25,465 bases of DNA, from positions 1-25,465 of IMG/VR virus record IMGVR_UViG_3300032118_003130; one strand, 5' to 3'. The DNA is from a virus. Of this stretch, positions 3,250-23,604 are shown piece by piece (the first letter of the stretch is position 1; each line of letters opens with the position of its first letter). The notes beneath the pieces are model-generated. The model was not told where the DNA came from, did no database searches, and worked only from the letters and a program-made list of their open reading frames with translations. The translations under genes were made by a program, and so were the position numbers.

Positions 3250-4809
3250 ATGACTATGAACTCGGAAAAAATCTCTCCACAAAAAGAATCCATTCAAGAC
3301 ATCAACATCAAACTGCTCATTCCCACGCCGGACAATACGCGGGAGATCAACGAAAAATCCCCGGCATTTACGGACCTGCTGGCCAGCGTCAGGAAAAGCG
3401 GCGTCAAAATCCCGGTCATCGCGCGGCCGCACCCGACACAGAAGGGAAAGTTTGATATGCGGGCAGGCGCCCGGAGATTGCGGGCGGCGAAAATTGCCGG
3501 ATTGAAAACAATCCCAGTGATCATCAGGGAGATGTCAGACCTTGAGGCCTTTGATATCACATACATCGAAAACTTCGGGCGGGAAGATTTGACACCCCTG
3601 CAGGAGGCGGCATTAGTTGCAGCGATGCTCGAAAAACACAACGGTGATTATCAGGCCATCGCCGACACGCTCGGCAAGCCGGTGTCATGGGTCGCATTGC
3701 GGGCCAATGTCGGCAAGAACCTGGCTCCGGAGTGGGTCAAGGCGATCAACGCCAAAGACAGTATCTTTGCTAAATGGACCAATGGTCACTTTGGATTGAT
3801 TGCGCGATTCGGCCACGATACGCAGGTCCGTCTGCTGAAAGAAGCCATGGAAAATAAATGGCGACAGGAGAGAATCAGCATCAAAGAACTCCAGAAGGAA
3901 ATTGATGATGAGATGCGGATATTGAAAAAAGCCGCCTGGCAGATGGATGAGCAACTCTGGGAAGACGGCAGGAAACTGCCGGTCTGTGAGGATTGCACCT
4001 CGCGGTCGGGATGCAGGCCGATGCTGTTTGCTGATAAAATCGAGAAAGACAAAGGGGACATGTGTTTAGACTCGATGTGCTGGCAGCAAAAACAGATTGC
4101 GGCAACGAAACGGATCATTGAGAAAAACAAGGTAAAGTATCCGAATCTTGTGATTATCAGCGATGCCGTAGTTGAGCCGCTCGGCGTCATCAAAAACAAA
4201 TATGAATACATGCCGGCAAAGAAAGAGGACAAGAAGGCGGTGCCGTGTCTTGATATCAGCAACAGTAAAGCCGGGTCTGTGAACTGGATGAAGCCGCGAT
4301 ATGCCGATTCCGCGGGCACAAAAACAAAGGGAAGAAAACCGGCGACGATGGAGAGCCGCAAGGATGAGATGAATCGCAAGCGATGGTTTTTTGTGCTGGG
4401 GGCGATGGAGAAACTGCTCGATGAAACGCCATTGGAGAAAATCACACCCAAAGACAAGGTTGCGGCGGTCTTGATTCTGACGGCACAATTTACGGCGTCG
4501 AATGAGGGACGAAGACCGGACAGCTCGCCAAGCTGGGACAAAAAACTGCTCAATAAAAAATTTCAGGGCAGCAGGGAATGGAAAATAACGCTCATCGAGG
4601 TGTGGGAGATGGTCAAGCCGGGAATCCGTCAGAGTTTTCATTATATGGGGCCGATCACGCAGACGCCGGACGAGAAGATTGAGGCGGGTAAGAAGGTCGC
4701 CTGGCTCATCGGCGCGGATATCGACGAGCTGACGAAAAAGGCGTGCGAAGAATACCCGGTGCCGAAGGCGTGGAAGAAATTAGAAGCGACAAAATCCAAT
4801 AAAAAATAA
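3250..4809 (+). CDS. ParB/RepB/Spo0J-like DNA-binding protein
   Basis: A 519-aa protein with a clear ParB N-terminal domain: residues 18-100 with the GARRLRAA box (73-80), the ENFGREDLTP box (107-116) and a helix-turn-helix around 132-155 (DYQAIADTLGKPVSWV). In ParB these bind CTP and a parS-like site. The middle carries five cysteines (C246, C249, C255, C272, C277), a likely metal site also seen in other phage and plasmid ParB-like proteins. The C-terminal 200 residues are basic and unassigned. AAAGGA precedes the ATG; a second ATG lies two codons in. No ParA ATPase gene is visible, so a role as a partition protein or as a transcription or replication regulator remains open. The tyrosine recombinase starts 9 bp downstream. 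Confidence 0.85.
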   Translation: MTMNSEKISPQKESIQDINIKLLIPTPDNTREINEKSPAFTDLLASVRKSGVKIPVIARPHPTQKGKFDMRAGARRLRAAKIAGLKTIPVIIREMSDLEAFDITYIENFGREDLTPLQEAALVAAMLEKHNGDYQAIADTLGKPVSWVALRANVGKNLAPEWVKAINAKDSIFAKWTNGHFGLIARFGHDTQVRLLKEAMENKWRQERISIKELQKEIDDEMRILKKAAWQMDEQLWEDGRKLPVCEDCTSRSGCRPMLFADKIEKDKGDMCLDSMCWQQKQIAATKRIIEKNKVKYPNLVIISDAVVEPLGVIKNKYEYMPAKKEDKKAVPCLDISNSKAGSVNWMKPRYADSAGTKTKGRKPATMESRKDEMNRKRWFFVLGAMEKLLDETPLEKITPKDKVAAVLILTAQFTASNEGRRPDSSPSWDKKLLNKKFQGSREWKITLIEVWEMVKPGIRQSFHYMGPITQTPDEKIEAGKKVAWLIGADIDELTKKACEEYPVPKAWKKLEATKSNKK

Positions 4810-4818
4810 GGTCTGATT

Positions 4819-5574
4819 ATGAAATCAAAACGCAAAATCAGGCGGGGTGGATTGGCTCCGGATAAGTATCTGACGGAAGAGCAGGTGGAACGGCTGCTGA
4901 CCTGGCTGGGTTATGCTGCGAAGTCGGGCAGCAACCGTTCCATTGTGAATCGATTCATCATAATCATGCTGCTCTATACGGGCTTGCGAGCCGAGGAGCT
5001 GCTGAGCCTGCGAATTAAAGATACGCCGGCATATCACGGCAAGCCCATCATTGACGTGCAGGAAGGCAAAGGATGCATAGCGCGTGCGGTGGATATACCG
5101 GATTGGCTTGTTCCCGTGATTAAAGATTTTATCCATCAATATCGCTTTGGGGCAAAGCCGGGGTCGGTATTGATTGCCAGTGAGAAAGGATTCCGCACAC
5201 TGTGGCTCAATAAGGTGATGATGGAAAACGGTCAGCGGACTGTGACCAAGAAACAAGAACGCAGTGCCCGGATGATATACACATGTCTGCGAGAACGGCT
5301 GGAGAGAATCGGCGAAAACTCCGGCATCGGCAGGTTGAGACCTCACATGCTTCGACATACTTATGCCACGTTGCTATATAGCCGCAAGCAGGACCTTTTG
5401 TGCGTTCAGGATGCACTCGGGCACAGCGATCCAAAGACTACTGCAATCTATGCCAGGACGCTCAATGATAACCGACGAAAGCAAGTTAATTCGTTGCCGG
5501 TTTGGCCGTCTTTATCAATAAAAACCCAAGAATTGCAGAGCAGACATAGGGATAGAAAGACAGCCAGATGTTAA
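4819..5574 (+). CDS. Short tyrosine recombinase (Xer/integrase-like)
   Basis: A 251-aa protein with the catalytic set of tyrosine recombinases: R57 (YTGLRAEELL), H176-x-x-R179 (HMLRHTYA), H202 (GHSDPKTTAIYAR) and nucleophile Y211. The usual N-terminal core-binding domain is missing or greatly shortened; only about 40 residues precede the catalytic domain. The C-terminus continues about 40 basic residues after Y211. It follows the parB-like gene closely, so a role in dimer resolution of a circular form, like Cre in P1, is an attractive inference. It could also be an integrase of limited range. The second, full-length integrase at 13126 suggests the two enzymes have different jobs. Confidence 0.88.
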   Translation: MKSKRKIRRGGLAPDKYLTEEQVERLLTWLGYAAKSGSNRSIVNRFIIIMLLYTGLRAEELLSLRIKDTPAYHGKPIIDVQEGKGCIARAVDIPDWLVPVIKDFIHQYRFGAKPGSVLIASEKGFRTLWLNKVMMENGQRTVTKKQERSARMIYTCLRERLERIGENSGIGRLRPHMLRHTYATLLYSRKQDLLCVQDALGHSDPKTTAIYARTLNDNRRKQVNSLPVWPSLSIKTQELQSRHRDRKTARC

Positions 5575-7874: not shown

Positions 7875-8951
7875 ATGAGACATCTTGATTTATTCAGCGG
7901 CATCGGCGGTTTTGCTTTGGCTGCCGGTTGGGTATGGGGCAACTCCCACAAAATCGTGGCTTTTTGTGAGATTGATAAATTCTGCCAGAAGGTATTGAAG
8001 AAGCATTGGCCGGCCGTGCCTATATGCGAAGACATAAGGAACTTAACGAATGAGAAAATTATTGCCAACGCCACAGGCAAGCGACTTTGTAGAAGGTGCG
8101 AGAACCGCACCGAACAGCAATCAAGCATGCCTGGGCAAGACACTGCGGAGGATGAACAAATCGACCTTCTCACGGGGGGATTTCCCTGCCAGCCTTTTTC
8201 CTGTGCCGGGAAGCGACGAGGCAAGGATGATGACCGTGCGCTCTGGCCGGAAATGCTGCGAGTTATTAAAGCGGTTAAACCACAATGGGTTATTGGCGAA
8301 AACGTTGCTGGGTTCGTCAATATGGCACTCGAAGAATGTTGCCTTGACCTGGAAATGGAAGGCTATGAAGTCCAGCCGTATATTATTCCAGCTTGCGCCG
8401 TCAATGCCCCACACCGACGAGACAGGGTGTGGATTATTGCCCACAATGGCAATGGGGACTCACGGCAGGGGCGGCTCGCTGGAGAAAAATATAGTGGCGG
8501 ATTTGAGGACGGGAAGAAAACCAAAACATCAAGTATTGCTTGTGGACAAAATAGCGGCGGCAGCGATGTTGCCGACACCGCAGACACAGGGGATGAAAGT
8601 TTGCGACGAGAACGGAAAGACCCGGTTTTTCAAGATGCTTGCGACTCCATCCGCAACGGACTGTCAAGGAACGCACGGCGGGGGTCGGGGCAAGAATTTG
8701 AGGACGGATTTGCACAAGACGCCAATAGAAAATGGTCAAGGCCGTGGCTTGAAGTTGCAGCCGAACTTTGTGGAGTGGATGATGGGCTACCCGCAGAACT
8801 GGACGGACTTAAATTGTCAAAGTCCAAACACAGGGAAAACAGACTTAAGTCCCTCGGCAACGCCATAGTGCCGCAAGTGGCAATGGTGATTATGCAGGCG
8901 ATAAAAGAAACCACGGATTTCGCTGATTTTCAATGGATGATGGATGATTGA
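7875..8951 (+). CDS. dcm: DNA (cytosine-5) methyltransferase
   Basis: A 358-aa C5-cytosine methyltransferase that transfers a methyl group from SAM to cytosine in DNA. Visible motifs: I (LDLFSGIGG, residues 4-12), IV with catalytic Cys (GGFPCQPFS, PCQ 104-106), VI (GENVAGF, ENV 142-144), VIII (RRDRVWIIA, 181-189) and X (SLGNAIVPQVA, about 336-346). Residues 190-330 are the variable target-recognition region. TTG at 7869 is possible, but ATG at 7875 gives the family N-terminus. No restriction enzyme is next to it, so it looks like an orphan phage methyltransferase, perhaps protective. A 272-codon ORF lies entirely inside it in the +1 frame. Its last 15 or so residues derive from a dispersed intergenic repeat. 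Confidence 0.95.
   Translation: MRHLDLFSGIGGFALAAGWVWGNSHKIVAFCEIDKFCQKVLKKHWPAVPICEDIRNLTNEKIIANATGKRLCRRCENRTEQQSSMPGQDTAEDEQIDLLTGGFPCQPFSCAGKRRGKDDDRALWPEMLRVIKAVKPQWVIGENVAGFVNMALEECCLDLEMEGYEVQPYIIPACAVNAPHRRDRVWIIAHNGNGDSRQGRLAGEKYSGGFEDGKKTKTSSIACGQNSGGSDVADTADTGDESLRRERKDPVFQDACDSIRNGLSRNARRGSGQEFEDGFAQDANRKWSRPWLEVAAELCGVDDGLPAELDGLKLSKSKHRENRLKSLGNAIVPQVAMVIMQAIKETTDFADFQWMMDD
8050..8868 (+). CDS. Nested +1-frame ORF inside dcm, LPTP-rich protein
   Basis: A 272-aa ORF in the +1 frame of the C5 methyltransferase gene. It has its own ATG at 8050 with AAGGA ending at 8040 (9-nt spacing). The product reads like a protein family often seen next to or overlapping phage dcm genes: repeated L(P/A)TP elements (KLLPTPQASD near residue 3, MLPTPQTQGM, LATPSATDCQG), a GRKCCELL segment, a SSIWHS...LTWKWK block and a C-terminal NFVEWMMGYPQNWTDL signature. 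From memory this family exists as annotated stand-alone proteins of unknown function. Whether it is translated here cannot be proven from sequence; it may be a true overlapping gene or a recurrent shadow of dcm. Confidence 0.55.
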   Translation: MRKLLPTPQASDFVEGARTAPNSNQACLGKTLRRMNKSTFSRGDFPASLFPVPGSDEARMMTVRSGRKCCELLKRLNHNGLLAKTLLGSSIWHSKNVALTWKWKAMKSSRILFQLAPSMPHTDETGCGLLPTMAMGTHGRGGSLEKNIVADLRTGRKPKHQVLLVDKIAAAAMLPTPQTQGMKVCDENGKTRFFKMLATPSATDCQGTHGGGRGKNLRTDLHKTPIENGQGRGLKLQPNFVEWMMGYPQNWTDLNCQSPNTGKTDLSPSATP

Positions 8952-8988
8952 TGATTGAGATGAAGGACATTTTAAATACGGTAATTTG
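8885..8988 (+). repeat. 104-bp direct repeat, downstream copy
   Basis: Spans the C-terminal codons of dcm and the first codons of the next methyltransferase; matches 7768-7871 with five transitions. Confidence 0.95.
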
Positions 8989-10579
8989 TGGCGATTGCCT
9001 TGAGGTTCTAAAAACCTTGCCGGATGAGGTTGTGGATTGTGTTATCACGTCGCCTCCATATTGGGGCTTGCGGGATTATGGAACGGCGAAGTGGGAAGGC
9101 GGGAGTGCGGACTGTAAGCACCTTGACGACTTTACCGCCGCCAAGCGGCGTAGAAACCGGAAAGGTCTTGCCAATAACGCCAATGAAGGAGACGGCGGGA
9201 ACAGAACCGCAGAAATACAAAACGGAATAGATAAGGCGTTTCAATACAAAGATGTGTGCCTGAAATGCGGTGCAGTTCGGATCGACAGTCAGCTTGGCCT
9301 TGAAAAAACTCCCGAAGAATATATCGCCAAGATGGTGGTGTTGTTTCGTGAGGTTCGGCGGGTGCTTAAAAAGGCGGGGACGCTGTGGCTGAATCTGGGG
9401 GATAGCTATTGTGGTGGTGGTGGTTATTGTCCAGACGCTCCAAGTAATAAAAATAGTGGTTCTTTATCCTCCAGACAGGACTCAGGAAGTGGAGCAAAAC
9501 CAAAAGGGATAAAACCGGTATCCGGTATTAAACCCAAAGACCTTTGTATGATACCCGCCCGTGTTGCTCTGGCGTTGCAGGCGGATGGCTGGTGGTTGCG
9601 GTCGGAGATTGTGTGGGCCAAGCCGAATCCGATGCCAGAAAGCGTTACAGACCGGCCTACGAAGGCACACGAGATGGTGTACCTGCTGACGAAATCGGGA
9701 GAATCGAATTATTGGGTCAATAATAAAACCGGCAGATTATCAAGTGTTCGCCCCGCCGGAACAAACGGAATCGAGGGGCGGGACTGGAAATGGATTGAAC
9801 ATTCGGCCTGTAAAGGCAGGGGTTGTGATAATAGCCGATGCGTTGCGGGCAAGGTAAAAACCTCTTTGTGGAACGGATATGATTATTTTTACGATGCCGA
9901 GGCGATAAAAGAAGAAGCGGTTGAAACAAATGACGCGCGGCCGAGAATGGGGCAGGGACCGAATACGCAGTATAACCAAAAGCGGGGGTTCATAACAAAA
10001 CCAGAAGAATCCGGGCTTTCGCCGCAAAAACATGGACAAAACATAGAGACTCGCGGCAAGCGCAATCGCCGTTCCGTCTGGACCATCCCGACACAGGCGT
10101 ACTCCGAGGCGCATTTCGCCACATTCCCTGAAAAGCTGATTGAGCCGATGATTCTGGCCGGGTGTCCGAAAGAGGTCTGCTCAAAGTGCGGCAAGGCGAG
10201 GGAAAGAATTGTGGAAACGTCATATCAAAAAAATGGAAGCGGAACCGTTGGGGGGCGTGGGCGATTTAGCGAAAATGATAATTCAGGATTCACGGGCAAG
10301 CCGAATATGAGCCGAATAGATCAAACCATCGGCTTTACCGACTGCGGTTGTGGTGAAAAATTTATACCCGGCCTTGTCCTTGACCCATTTATGGGCAGCG
10401 GCACGGTCGGCTATGTGGCGGCTGTCAATCAGAGAGATTATCTCGGCATTGAACTGAATCCGAAATATATTGAGATGGCAAAGATGAGAATTGCGAAAGC
10501 CGAGACCGGCGTATCGGTCGAAGAACAAAAGCAGGGGCAGGGGTGTTTAATAAATCTGTGCCGTCTGTGGTCTCTGTGA
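8951..10579 (+). CDS. DNA amino-methyltransferase (N4-cytosine/N6-adenine)
   Basis: A 542-aa methyltransferase of the beta class: catalytic motif IV TSPPYWGLRDYG (33-44) near the N-terminus and SAM-binding motif I DPFMGSGTVGYVA (478-490) near the C-terminus. SPPYW favours N4-cytosine but N6-adenine is possible. Between them lie a large target-recognition region and several CxxC-type pairs (CLKCG, CSKCGKARER, DCGCG), suggesting zinc ribbons. The ATG at 8951 overlaps the dcm TGA by one base; an in-frame TTG lies just upstream and ATG at 8960 is another option. The last 12 or so residues are encoded by a dispersed CTGTGG-type repeat. It acts in tandem with dcm, likely giving two kinds of methylation. 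Confidence 0.92.
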   Translation: MIEMKDILNTVICGDCLEVLKTLPDEVVDCVITSPPYWGLRDYGTAKWEGGSADCKHLDDFTAAKRRRNRKGLANNANEGDGGNRTAEIQNGIDKAFQYKDVCLKCGAVRIDSQLGLEKTPEEYIAKMVVLFREVRRVLKKAGTLWLNLGDSYCGGGGYCPDAPSNKNSGSLSSRQDSGSGAKPKGIKPVSGIKPKDLCMIPARVALALQADGWWLRSEIVWAKPNPMPESVTDRPTKAHEMVYLLTKSGESNYWVNNKTGRLSSVRPAGTNGIEGRDWKWIEHSACKGRGCDNSRCVAGKVKTSLWNGYDYFYDAEAIKEEAVETNDARPRMGQGPNTQYNQKRGFITKPEESGLSPQKHGQNIETRGKRNRRSVWTIPTQAYSEAHFATFPEKLIEPMILAGCPKEVCSKCGKARERIVETSYQKNGSGTVGGRGRFSENDNSGFTGKPNMSRIDQTIGFTDCGCGEKFIPGLVLDPFMGSGTVGYVAAVNQRDYLGIELNPKYIEMAKMRIAKAETGVSVEEQKQGQGCLINLCRLWSL

Positions 10580-10643: not shown

Positions 10644-11513
10644 ATGACGCTGATTTATAAAACCAAAGGCGAAGCGCTCGAGTATGCGTACTTAGGACTG
10701 AATCACTATGCCGGATGCTCCCACGGCTGCGCTTATTGCTATATGCGGCGGATGGATGAACGGTTCGGCAATATCGACTTTGACCGTCCGCGGCCAAAAA
10801 GGGAACCGACCGAATTGATTCGGCAACTCGAACGGGAGGCGGAAAAACTGGCCGGAACGAACAGGCGGGTACAACTCTGCTTTTCAACCGACCCTTATCA
10901 GCCCCTGGATGCCGAATTGAAACTGACGCGGGCGGTGATCCGCGTCCTAATAGAACTCCATATCCCCTTCCAGTCGCTGACCAAGGGCGGATTTCTGGCC
11001 CGGAGGGATTTCGATTTATATGGGGCGGACGATTTGTTCGGCGTGACGATGACGGCAATATCCATGGAATTATTTTCGAAGATACACAAAAGAGCCGACG
11101 AACCTAAAATTCAGATTTGCAGTCTGCGGGTTGCAAAATCTTATGGCATTAAGACATGGGTATCGCTGGAACCGGTGATATGGCCGTCGGAATCACTGCA
11201 AATCATTGAACAGACGTATGAGTTTGTGGACCTGTACAAGATCGGCAGACTGAATCCGCCGGACAGCGGCGACAATATTAATTGGCCGAAATTCGCCGCC
11301 GACGCGGTTGGCCTGTGTGAGAAACTCGGTGTCAAATATTATCTCAAAAACAATCTGACAAGACTGCTGCCGGCGGGCAGCTATCATAATACGGACTGGA
11401 GAAAAATTGAAACCACAGATATCCTGGGCATAAAAAACAACAAAATCCCCTGCCGGCAACCGGCGGCGGCGGAGTCGCGGGATGAACAAAACAAACCATT
11501 TCCTTACGCATAA
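10644..11513 (+). CDS. SPL-like radical SAM protein
   Basis: A 289-aa protein with a CX3CX2C iron-sulfur motif (C25, C29, C32: CSHGCAYC) followed by a YMRR segment, the N-terminus of the radical SAM family related to spore photoproduct lyase and phage Gp37/Gp68. Later blocks include CFSTDPYQPLDAEL (about 77-90), LTKGGFLARRD (about 113-123) and WVSLEPVIWP (about 172-181), all typical of this family. GAGGTG precedes the ATG. The family cleaves SAM to a radical; the substrate here is unknown. Repair of UV-damaged DNA or a DNA or RNA base modification would fit its place between two DNA methyltransferases and the replication gene. Confidence 0.88.
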   Translation: MTLIYKTKGEALEYAYLGLNHYAGCSHGCAYCYMRRMDERFGNIDFDRPRPKREPTELIRQLEREAEKLAGTNRRVQLCFSTDPYQPLDAELKLTRAVIRVLIELHIPFQSLTKGGFLARRDFDLYGADDLFGVTMTAISMELFSKIHKRADEPKIQICSLRVAKSYGIKTWVSLEPVIWPSESLQIIEQTYEFVDLYKIGRLNPPDSGDNINWPKFAADAVGLCEKLGVKYYLKNNLTRLLPAGSYHNTDWRKIETTDILGIKNNKIPCRQPAAAESRDEQNKPFPYA

Positions 11514-11834: not shown

Positions 11835-12692
11835 ATGACACAGGCGAGCTATGACATCATCATTCCCGGCCGGGTGCGGCAGGACAAACGGCTCGGACTA
11901 TTCGAACAGGTACTGTACGGTGAGGTACGGGGCCTGTGCCGACTAAATGGCTATTGCTGGGCGTCCAACGCGTTCCTGGCGGGCCGTATGCAGTGCGATG
12001 GGCGATCCGTGCGGCGATGGCTGGCAAAACTCCAGGAATGCAAACACATTGCCATTGAGCGGGGGGACGAAAACAAAAACCTGCGAAAAATTACCCTGAC
12101 CGAAGGGCGGACCGGCGTGTCCACCCTGCGGACTCCAGAGTCCATCCCAAGGACTGCCCAGTCCGCAGGCCGGACCCCAGTGTCCGGCAAAGGGCGGACT
12201 CCAGTGTCCGCGCTGGCGGGCGGTATAAGGAAGAATACTAATAAAACACCACCACCAACATGCAGAGACCAGAGAAAAAAGAGGAATGGTGATGATGATG
12301 GATTTAATTTTTTAAAATTACCAAAACAAATAAAAGATCGATTTGGAGTTAAAAAAACACTGCGGAGATTTTTCAAAGACTGCGACGGCAATATCGCCTT
12401 AATGCAGCGATACTTCAACTACGCCAACAAGGCCAGGGCCAAAAATCCGACCGGCATGGCGGTCAGACTCGCACAGGATTACAAAACCGAAGGACCGCCG
12501 GGAGGAACGGTGGGGAAGCCGTGTGCGTTTTGTGTTGAACCCGGCGAAACCTGCGTGGAGCGTTCCGGGATGAAAATATGGCTTTGCAAAAAACATCGGA
12601 ACATTTATCGCGGACTTCGGGATGCGGGAAAACAGGAACATCTGTGCATGATTGAGACGGCGGTGCAAAAAATGAAAGGAATCGGCCAATGA
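11835..12692 (+). CDS. O-like replication initiator with internal origin
   Basis: A 285-aa protein. Residues about 25-75 form a winged-helix/HTH domain (GYCWASNAFLAGRM...GRSVRRWLAKLQ) like lambda O or phage replisome organizers. Residues 92-126 hold a heptapeptide repeat (RTGVSTL, RTPESIP, RTAQSAG, RTPVSGKG, RTPVS) encoded by five palindromic DNA iterons. A basic AT-rich linker follows, then a helical domain (155-215) and a C-terminal Cys/His cluster (C230, C233, C240, C251, H254), likely zinc binding. It would bind the origin and recruit the host helicase. ATG 11835 lies 3 bp after the DUF4031 stop; its TGA overlaps the next ATG. Confidence 0.75.
   Translation: MTQASYDIIIPGRVRQDKRLGLFEQVLYGEVRGLCRLNGYCWASNAFLAGRMQCDGRSVRRWLAKLQECKHIAIERGDENKNLRKITLTEGRTGVSTLRTPESIPRTAQSAGRTPVSGKGRTPVSALAGGIRKNTNKTPPPTCRDQRKKRNGDDDGFNFLKLPKQIKDRFGVKKTLRRFFKDCDGNIALMQRYFNYANKARAKNPTGMAVRLAQDYKTEGPPGGTVGKPCAFCVEPGETCVERSGMKIWLCKKHRNIYRGLRDAGKQEHLCMIETAVQKMKGIGQ
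12109..12360 (+). other. Candidate replication origin: five iterons plus AT-rich DNA
   Basis: Five copies of the hyphenated palindrome GGAC-N6-GTCC lie at 12109-12122, 12130-12143, 12151-12164, 12172-12185 and 12196-12209. Centre spacing is 21, 21, 21 and 24 bp, close to two DNA turns. They sit in the middle of the initiator gene and are followed by AT-rich DNA, strongest at about 12301-12360. This is the arrangement of the lambda origin inside gene O. Iterons by sequence are certain; origin function is inferred. Confidence 0.7.
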
Positions 12693-12841
12693 CGACGGAA
12701 TATGCCGCATGGAAAAAACAGTTTTTGAACTCGCTGGGGAAAGGAATATTCGGGCGATGGGGGTGGTTTTGGTTGCGGATTCGGATGTGGATCGAGGATC
12801 GACTGCCGAAAAGCCGGGGAAAACGGGAAGTCAAAAAATGA
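12689..12841 (+). CDS. Small hypothetical protein, Trp-rich, 50 aa
   Basis: ATG overlaps the stop of the O-like gene (ATGA) and its own TGA overlaps the next ATG (ATGA at 12838-12841). The middle is rich in Trp, Phe and Arg (GRWGWFWLRIRMW), which suggests an amphipathic membrane-binding helix. The end is basic. The double coupling is the main support. A frame starting at 12709 reads through this region instead but lacks its own ribosome-binding site. Confidence 0.55.
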   Translation: MTTEYAAWKKQFLNSLGKGIFGRWGWFWLRIRMWIEDRLPKSRGKREVKK

Positions 12842-13044
12842 CGACAAAGCCGATCACCATGCAGGGAGAGATAGACCGAAATGCCCGGCGGCTGTGCGAT
12901 GTGATGCTGGCGGAAACATTAGACAAGATGGACTGGGGCGGATTCGACCCGGACAAGGCGCTGACGCTGACGCTGGAAGAGATTGGAGCGGGAAGGCTGC
13001 GGCCGATTCGGCCGGGGGAAAACGTAAAAGGATTGTGCGTTTAA
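12838..13044 (+). CDS. Small hypothetical acidic protein, 68 aa
   Basis: Starts by ATGA overlap with the preceding gene. It is a soluble, mostly helical protein with an NARRLCDVMLAETLDKMDWGGFD segment and an LTLTLEEIGAGRLRP segment. It is translationally coupled to the replication gene, so a helicase-loader-like accessory role could be imagined but nothing in the sequence shows it. An upstream start at 12709 would overlap the previous gene extensively. Confidence 0.6.
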   Translation: MTTKPITMQGEIDRNARRLCDVMLAETLDKMDWGGFDPDKALTLTLEEIGAGRLRPIRPGENVKGLCV

Positions 13045-13125: not shown

Positions 13126-14364
13126 ATGAGATTTTTTAAGCCACTATATAAAAATCAAAACGGACAAAAAAAACGCACAATAAAGTTCTATTTAGATTTT
13201 GTTGATCATGCAAGCCGTCGCCGCCGAATGCCAGCATTTGAAAGTCAGACCAAAACCGAAATCTTATCAAAAAAAATAAAGGAGTTGATATTTTTTGTTT
13301 ATCAAAGTGAACCACTTGACGGTCTTCTTTTACGATGGTTTTTTTCCCAGCCTCAGCGGATTCAGCGAAAATTGGAAAATTGGGGGCTATTGCCAAAACA
13401 AGAATCTTTTGACGATATCAGTCTGGTTAAAAATGTCGCTGATTATCAAACGTCGCTGCGAGCCGGGGGCAAAAGTGAAACACATATCCAGGGGACTGTA
13501 AATCGAATCCGGGCAATCATAAATTTTTGCGGATGGAAAACCATTAAGGATATCGAGGCCTTTGGGGTCGATAGGTATTTGCAAAATCTTAGAACCGCGA
13601 ATCGGTCGGCGACAACAATCAATCATTACCAGGCGGCTTTGAGGGCATTCTGTGGTTGGCTGAAACGATACGGTCGCATGCAGAATAATCCCGTTGATTT
13701 TATGAATAAATTAAAAACCCATCCCGCACAAAGAGGTATATTGACTGCAGAACAATTCCGAACATTGATAGAAAAAACGGTTGACAATAAACAGGAATTT
13801 TATGAGATACGTAGAAAAAAACTCAAATTTCAGTTGAGTGGTCCATCGCGGGCGACGCTTTATCTGGTTGCCGGCTTGACTGGTTTTCGGCGGGGTGAGT
13901 TGCTGTCTATGCGATGGTCGGATGTTATTCTCAACGAAAATAATCCGGCGATCCTGCTGGATGGAAGCCGGACGAAAAACCACAGGAACGCTGTGCAGCC
14001 GATCCCGAACGGTCTATGCAGAATGTTGTTCTGTTGGAAACAGACCTTAAACCCCGGATCAGATGAGCCGTTATTCCATAATTTCACGGAACATGGCAGA
14101 CCGAGCGAATGGATTCGAGAGGACTTGAAGGCGGCGAACTTGCCGACTAAGGATTATGAGGGCCGTAAAATTGATTTTCACAGCCTACGCGGCTCGTACA
14201 TCACGTTTCTTGCCAACAGCCAAACTCCAGTGAGGGTCACGCAGGAACTTGCAAGGCATTCAAACCCAGCCCTTACAATGAATGTTTATGCGAAAGTCCT
14301 GCCGGAAATTCAAAAGCAAGCGGTTCGGTCTTTGCCTGATATAAATCCTTTGCTTTTATATTAG
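13126..14364 (+). CDS. int: Phage integrase, tyrosine recombinase
   Basis: A 412-aa tyrosine recombinase. Residues 1-60 look like an arm-type N-terminal domain, 95-190 a SAM-like core-binding domain (TINHYQAALRAFCGWL), and 205-400 the catalytic domain. Catalytic residues: R255 (LTGFRRGELL), K284 (SRTKNH), H352-x-x-R355 (FHSLRGSYIT), H378 (ARHSNPA) and nucleophile Y388 (NVYAKV). The HxLRG form, with Gly after the Arg, is common in this subgroup. The gene is more AT-rich than the head genes. It sits beside an excisionase-like gene, so it is the likely prophage integrase. The attachment site should be near but I could not identify it. Confidence 0.93.
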   Translation: MRFFKPLYKNQNGQKKRTIKFYLDFVDHASRRRRMPAFESQTKTEILSKKIKELIFFVYQSEPLDGLLLRWFFSQPQRIQRKLENWGLLPKQESFDDISLVKNVADYQTSLRAGGKSETHIQGTVNRIRAIINFCGWKTIKDIEAFGVDRYLQNLRTANRSATTINHYQAALRAFCGWLKRYGRMQNNPVDFMNKLKTHPAQRGILTAEQFRTLIEKTVDNKQEFYEIRRKKLKFQLSGPSRATLYLVAGLTGFRRGELLSMRWSDVILNENNPAILLDGSRTKNHRNAVQPIPNGLCRMLFCWKQTLNPGSDEPLFHNFTEHGRPSEWIREDLKAANLPTKDYEGRKIDFHSLRGSYITFLANSQTPVRVTQELARHSNPALTMNVYAKVLPEIQKQAVRSLPDINPLLLY

Positions 14365-17898: not shown

Positions 17899-18234
17899 AT
17901 GAAAAAAGAGCAAAAGAAAAAAAATAAAGACATCATCGTCACCGGCGGATGTGTTGTGGTAAAAAATACCGGCGAGATATTGAGGGAACTAAAGAATACA
18001 GGAACACAAGAACTCAAGAACCCACGAACGCAAGAATTAAAAAAACGGGAGATGCCGAAACCGGCGGAGATTCCGGTCGGAATCCAATGTCGCAACTGTG
18101 GATGCAGACATTTTGACGTTACCCATAAGATACCAATCTCCGGCAATCGTGAACGGCGATATATGAAATGTCGGTACTGTGGACTGATTCACCGCACAAT
18201 TGAAATGGTAGAAAAAACCACATCTCATAATTAA
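17899..18234 (+). CDS. Zinc-ribbon phage protein
   Basis: A 111-aa protein. Residues 64-96 carry CRNCGCRHFDV...KCRYCG, a two-CxxC zinc ribbon with the wording of small phage late-region zinc ribbons of the Ogr-like kind. The first half is basic and includes NTGTQELKNPRTQELKKR, a duplicated peptide encoded by an AAGAAC-type dispersed DNA repeat inserted in frame. It lies between terminase and gpW, where such small zinc proteins are common; a late-gene regulator or packaging helper is possible. Confidence 0.7.
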   Translation: MKKEQKKKNKDIIVTGGCVVVKNTGEILRELKNTGTQELKNPRTQELKKREMPKPAEIPVGIQCRNCGCRHFDVTHKIPISGNRERRYMKCRYCGLIHRTIEMVEKTTSHN

Positions 18235-18467: not shown

Positions 18468-18537
18468 TTAACCACAGATTTCACAGATAAACACAGATTT
18501 TTTTAATCAGCGAAAATCAGTGTGAATCGGTGGTTAA
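18468..18537 (+). repeat. Inverted dispersed repeat before gpW
   Basis: Arms TTAACCACAGATT (18468-18480) and AATCGGTGGTTAA (18525-18537), one mismatch in 13 bp. Same family as 17816-17888. Confidence 0.85.
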
Positions 18538-18555
18538 AAATTATGGTTGAAAATT

Positions 18556-18786
18556 ATGGTGGCAAATTATCAGACAATCATTGATGACATCAATACGGCA
18601 ATCGCCGCCGGCGTCAGCAGTCCCGGCAAACTCACAACGCGAGACGGCAGAACCATCGAATACCGCGACCTCGCCGATCTTGTCGCCGCACGAAAAGAAT
18701 ATGCGTCCCTGCTGGCCCAGCAGACCAAAGGCGGCGGGAAACGATTCGGCATCATCCCAATGTCCCACGGTTCGGGGGTATTGTAA
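18556..18786 (+). CDS. gpW-like head-tail joining protein
   Basis: A 76-aa protein of gpW type: an N-terminal helix (NYQTIIDDINTAIAAG), a beta hairpin (KLTTRDGRTIEYRDLADL) and a C-terminal helix (VAARKEYASLLAQQ). Lambda gpW plugs the head connector. I prefer ATG 18556 over TTG 18547 because it gives the family's usual N-terminus. It directly precedes the portal gene, as in lambda. Confidence 0.85.
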   Translation: MVANYQTIIDDINTAIAAGVSSPGKLTTRDGRTIEYRDLADLVAARKEYASLLAQQTKGGGKRFGIIPMSHGSGVL

Positions 18787-23357: not shown

Positions 23358-23397
23358 CCATATTTTGGCGGAATAAATCCGAAATCCGAAATCCGAA

Positions 23398-23604
23398 ATG
23401 AAAAAAATGAACACACTGGCGGAACATATCGCGGAGCTGGAAGAGACATTAAACCTGATGACGGCGAACGGACATTTCGCCGACGAGGAACTCAACGCCG
23501 CGGGAAAGATGCTGGACGATGTCATTGCCCTGCTGTGGAAACGACAACGGGAACTTTCGAGTTCATTGAATATTGAAAAAGACAATGAAGGGGTCGCAAT
23601 ATGA
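23398..23604 (+). CDS. Small acidic coiled-coil protein, 68 aa
   Basis: Starts just after a CCGAAAT triple repeat. The 68-aa product has hydrophobic and acidic residues in heptad positions (IAELEETLNLM...LNAAGKMLDDVIALLWKRQREL), a likely helical coiled coil. ATG 23398 and ATG 23407 are both possible. Its TGA overlaps the ATG of the next gene (23601). Function unknown; small helical proteins at this place often help head completion or lysis. Confidence 0.55.
   Translation: MKKMNTLAEHIAELEETLNLMTANGHFADEELNAAGKMLDDVIALLWKRQRELSSSLNIEKDNEGVAI

Follow-up and report, generated by a model that had tools for sequence, protein, structure and literature searches.

The window analysed here spans the full 25,465 bp of an IMG/VR virus record and contains a replication initiator gene of the HTH_36 family whose central segment is, with a probability of roughly 0.87, the origin of the phage: the N-terminal domain of the initiator would bind a set of palindromes located in this segment and the neighbouring AT-rich DNA would melt. 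In the best reading, the window is a new member of the in-gene origins, of known architecture, found in a separate initiator family (HTH_36, with a fold near that of RepA_N). This reading draws on the sequence, homology and array conservation, on the AT-rich flank, on the disorder predicted for the linker and on covariation between residues and bases. Binding by dimers, melting, recruitment of the helicase and origin function are proposed, the models for the first three being drawn from lambda (PMC7466680) and the RepA_N plasmids (PMC5703833).

The initiator gene and its genomic context

The initiator gene (positions 11835-12692, plus strand, 285 amino acids) has been identified through Pfam and PHROG matches. 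HTH_36 (PF13730; E=2.9e-7, 30.6 bits with a cut-off of 25) is its only Pfam match at E up to 0.001, the lambda O family (Phage_rep_O) and the RepA_N domain (PF06970) being absent among the matches within this limit. Furthermore, PHROG families of the category "replication initiation protein" match the initiator (19658, E=5.8e-12, and 270, E=1.3e-11), and matches to O-like PHROG families are weak (391, E=9.6e-6, and 678). In named phages with an HTH_36-type domain, the following gene often encodes a replicative helicase, a DnaC-like loader or a replication P protein. The ORF next after the initiator of the window (12709-13044) has no family match in Pfam or PHROG, and no helicase or P-type loader gene has been recognised beside the initiator with these two resources.

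Several other genes have been recorded in the window. A radical SAM protein gene (10644-11513) lies immediately 5' of the initiator, and adjoining DNA methyltransferase-like genes are found at 8050-8868 and 8948-10579, the latter being matched by N6_N4_Mtase in two stretches. Two tyrosine integrase-like genes (4819-5574 and 13126-14364) stand apart from each other in one short phage record. A ParB-like protein of 519 amino acids is encoded at 3250-4809, and the C-terminal part of a 263-amino acid ORF (1897-2688) shows a transposase-like match.

Palindromic iterons and AT-rich DNA in the window

Five GGAC-N6-GTCC palindromes, spaced by 21, 21, 21 and 24 bp, had been described inside the initiator gene in an earlier note on this DNA, and all of them are exact and spaced as claimed: iteron 1 (GGACCGGCGTGTCC, 12109-12122), iteron 2 (GGACTCCAGAGTCC, 12130-12143), iteron 3 (GGACTGCCCAGTCC, 12151-12164), iteron 4 (GGACCCCAGTGTCC, 12172-12185) and iteron 5 (GGACTCCAGTGTCC, 12196-12209). 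These are the only exact copies of GGAC-N6-GTCC in the 25,465 bp, and one-mismatch matches amount to seven others, scattered over the window. When the codons were redrawn with the protein kept fixed and the window's own codon usage, five palindromes appeared in 0 of 200,000 versions and four in 4 of them, so the array is not explained by codon choice. Moreover, a purpose-made palindrome-array finder, used de novo, placed the array of the window at the usual site with a score of 31, as compared with about 8 for shuffles. No clear turn in GC skew is visible at the array across the window, the record being a fragment. Short tandem repeats are also present elsewhere in the window, at 17986-18041 (24-bp unit), 18531-18570 (13-bp unit) and 23375-23399 (7-bp unit).

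The palindromes had also been said to stand next to AT-rich DNA. Such DNA is indeed present on the 3' side, where a candidate unwinding element (12235-12359) has an AT content of 56-88% per 25 bp, compared with about 50% for the window; it is not immediately adjacent, beginning about 25 bp after iteron 5, and this gap exceeds the family average. By stretch, the AT content is 36% at 12210-12234, 64% at 12235-12259 and 72-88% at 12285-12359. Among the arrays of the family (94 members), the AT maximum falls within 50 bp on the 3' side, the first two 25-bp bins exceeding the locus mean by 0.16 and 0.10, and no AT peak is seen on the 5' side of the GGAC arrays. The 3' rise has been observed beside non-GGAC arrays as well.

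Predicted domain organisation

The AlphaFold2 model of the initiator, whose overall pTM is only 0.38, comprises an N-terminal winged-helix DNA-binding domain (amino acids 1-92; 11835-12110, plus strand) with pLDDT mostly above 90. The recognition helix of this domain (amino acids 56-68; 12000-12038, plus strand), proposed from the model and from covariation with half-site bases, carries R57, R60 and R61 on one face. The following segment (amino acids 93-156; 12111-12302, plus strand), which includes the iterons, is a predicted disordered linker, pLDDT being below 50 for residues 95-156. Finally, the C-terminal region (amino acids 157-285; 12303-12689, plus strand) contains a Cys/His motif, forms a separate and partly confident region of the model and may contact the helicase or its loader. 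In a fold search, the N-terminal domain was aligned with the RepA_N structures 4pql and 4pt7 (Z 10.6 and 10.5, rmsd 2.6, 89 residues aligned); among initiators the RepA_N N-terminal domains are the closest fold, with other winged helices scoring similarly, and MarR-type regulators are among the solved structures most similar to the domain.

Conservation of the array in related initiators

Viral contigs were scanned, with no protein information, for three GGAC-N6-GTCC sites spaced by 21-25 bp, and 109 stretches were obtained. A pattern with looser spacing had been swamped by collagen-like Gly-Pro repeats (18/27 bp), which the 21-25 bp limit cleared. With the array masked in the comparison, an HTH domain like that of the window was found directly upstream of 88 of the 115 viral arrays; only 10 of the 7,928 array-free ORFs from the same loci fit the domain model, and these mostly adjoin an array. 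In bacterial genomes the HTH domain accompanies 22 of 120 arrays, and there other tandem repeats also produce such arrays. The GGAC arrays located in viral contigs from DNA alone thus fall mostly within homologous initiator genes, at the equivalent position.

The 94 non-redundant arrays mostly consist of 3-5 copies with a spacing of 22, 23 or 24 bp in most cases. Because the reading frame changes within the array in 102 of 117 in-gene cases, and six arrays are situated just beyond the end of a short HTH reading frame, it is the DNA and not the peptide that is conserved. In the window the spacing does preserve the frame and generates the RTxxS repeat previously pointed out, the five in-frame copies reading RTGVS, RTPES, RTAQS, RTPVS and RTPVS, but neither the frame-keeping 21-bp phase nor the peptide holds as a rule among these relatives. 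In fact, a phase of 21 bp, as in the window, marks the limit of the range, the RTxxS repeat being an incidental result of it. At one locus (L161) the GGAC array (220-278) is located just 5' of the HTH ORF (305-1183) and not inside it, and the open frame before this ORF ends in an initiator-like linker peptide.

A further set of loci was picked by protein similarity alone and then scanned with the palindrome-array finder. Scores of at least 14 were reached by 242 of 412 HTH ORFs, a count in which the DNA-selected set is included, versus 1 of 2,060 shuffles; about 40% of the scanned HTH ORFs have no palindromic array by this finder, direct repeats being present in some. Many protein-selected relatives carry an array at the same place with different half-sites, for example TGAC, TTGA, GGAA or GTGAA. 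In two Firmicute-type relatives (L001, 5268-5375, and L025, 5267-5329), 18-nt direct repeats without clear palindromes occupy the same gene position with a spacing of 22-23 bp. Cellulophaga phage phi39:1 is a relative whose host is in culture.

Covariation between recognition helix and half-site

The diversity of half-sites has been compared with the residues of the recognition helix in a training set of 53 protein-selected clusters at 80% identity. In 31 of the 35 clusters with Arg at column 42 of the domain the third core base is C, as against 2 of the 18 with other residues; where column 38 is Arg or Lys the first core base is typically G, and where column 41 is Arg or Lys a G typically adjoins the core on its outer side. 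These three rules were fixed in writing before more loci were fetched, and were then applied to 20 new clusters less than 80% identical to the earlier ones, the window being left out of the covariation tests as it had suggested the motif. In the test clusters, the R61-type Arg of column 42 occurs with C in 9 of 9 cases and other residues in 0 of 11; the corresponding values are 14/14 versus 2/6 for column 38 and 2/2 versus 2/18 for column 41. Moreover, the three rule pairs rank at the top of 312 column-base pairs at 80% and 60% clustering, and the ranking blurs at 50% (25 clusters). In matched pairs of similar background that differ in the residue, the base tracks the residue by 20:0, 17:1 and 11:0. 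Five plasmid loci were added later: a single array was above threshold and it violates the column-42 rule, having Lys with C.

From the Arg residues at R57, R60 and R61, GGAC is predicted for the window, as observed. The fact that the arms track recognition-helix residues across the family points to a contact between protein and DNA. The HTH_36 initiators are probably one large family in which the three helix positions occupied by R57, R60 and R61 determine the half-site of the in-gene origin. If this is true, the protein sequence could be used to predict the origin in many phages that are still uncharacterised, and a shift of compatibility type would come about by paired changes of helix and iterons inside one gene.

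Alternative explanations and proposed mechanism

The liveliest rival is autoregulation from within the gene, in which the palindromes would be operators through which the initiator regulates transcription from inside its own gene, the phage origin being elsewhere. Winged-helix proteins are often repressors acting on palindromes, and MarR-type regulators are among the closest solved folds of the N-terminal domain. On the other hand, no exact copy of the palindrome is found near a promoter, the arrangement of 3-5 sites 22-24 bp apart with an AT-rich 3' flank is the anatomy of an origin, the PHROG profiles are those of replication initiators, and in named phages the initiator is often adjoined by a helicase, loader or replication P gene. 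Operators with an origin elsewhere are therefore improbable, and the in-gene sites of an origin could also serve autoregulation.

Folding of the strand of the iteron segment, which is better than that of shuffled sequence (z = -4.7), might suggest that this part of the initiator mRNA acts as a structured element. Good folding is expected of any array of palindromes, however, and the arms follow the recognition-helix residues across the family, for which reason this explanation has been rejected as very unlikely. Still less credible is an RTxxS minisatellite selected for its peptide, with the DNA palindrome as a by-product: the repeat of the window is in frame and the peptide regular, but five palindromes never arise in the codon redraws, the relatives retain the DNA while changing frame (102/117), six arrays lie outside the ORF and the linker is predicted to be disordered. 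The frame changes and the redraws contradict the peptide reading, which has been rejected.

An iteron origin inside an O-like gene, whose DNA doubles as a protein linker, had been proposed for this segment, and such an origin is predicted here with the support of homology, array conservation, 3' AT-rich DNA, modelled disorder and covariation. In the proposed mechanism, each 14-bp palindrome would be bound by two N-terminal winged-helix domains acting as a dimer, with R60 contacting the first G of GGAC, R57 the second G and R61 the G opposite the C. Five dimers placed about two helical turns apart would form a nucleoprotein array, the AT-rich DNA at 12235-12359 would open next to it, and the host helicase or its loader would be recruited by the C-terminal region. 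The sequence of a disordered linker is presumably little constrained, leaving the same DNA free to carry the sites.

Comparison with known systems

Origins of this in-gene type have been described in lambda, P22, phage L and the RepA_N plasmids, the sites being particular to each. Neither the GGAC class nor the residue-base code has been found reported in the open-access papers searched, which is not proof of novelty, and a text search of the open-access literature returned no paper on the GGAC-N6-GTCC palindrome. With residues matched to bases in one family of hundreds of members, origins would become locatable and their specificity predictable from sequence. It would also become directly testable how the replicons of phages and plasmids switch origin specificity and stay functional, because protein and site are encoded in a single gene, separated by a few dozen codons.

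In lambda, the iterons are located within an O-like gene. The sites bound by lambda O are imperfect inverted repeats in the central part of its own gene, flanked on one side by an AT-rich tract (PMC7466680), and the window shares with ori-lambda both the mid-gene inverted repeats and the AT-rich tract beside them (12235-12359). The description of the window as lambda-like is thus appropriate for the architecture but not for membership, since the window protein belongs to HTH_36 and not to lambda O in Pfam, its fold is nearest to RepA_N among initiators and no recognised P-type gene follows; the iteron itself, GGAC-N6-GTCC, differs from the lambda sequence, as had been stated. Phages P22 and L possess O-like initiators (gp18 in phage L) with type-specific repeats in the gene (PMC8022706). 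A link to phage L through the half-site TGTCC (similar to GGACA) was considered and dropped, as gp18 lacks the HTH_36 match of the window protein and is associated with direct repeats of 11 bp.

In the RepA_N initiators of pSK41 and pTZ2162, the Rep boxes lie centrally in the rep gene and are the binding sites of the N-terminal winged helix, and the ori-encoded middle of the pSK41-type protein is a linker (PMC5703833). The winged-helix N-terminal fold (Z about 10.5, 89 residues) and the central position of the sites are shared with the window, which differs in its HTH_36 assignment by Pfam, in its sites and in being a phage and not a plasmid. Another related system is pPR9, whose Rep is a plasmid chimera of an HTH_36 N-terminal domain and a pSK41-type C-terminal domain; the HTH_36 domain, which it has in common with the window protein, and the in-gene region support autonomous replication, and pPR9 is compatible with pSK41 (PMC5703833). 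Finally, the initiator of Staphylococcus phage 77 (NC_005356) shares with the window the HTH_36 N-terminal domain and an in-gene palindromic array and is followed by a DnaC-like loader, but differs in its half-site (TTGAC), its helix (KETISRR) and its C-terminal domain (Phg_2220_C).
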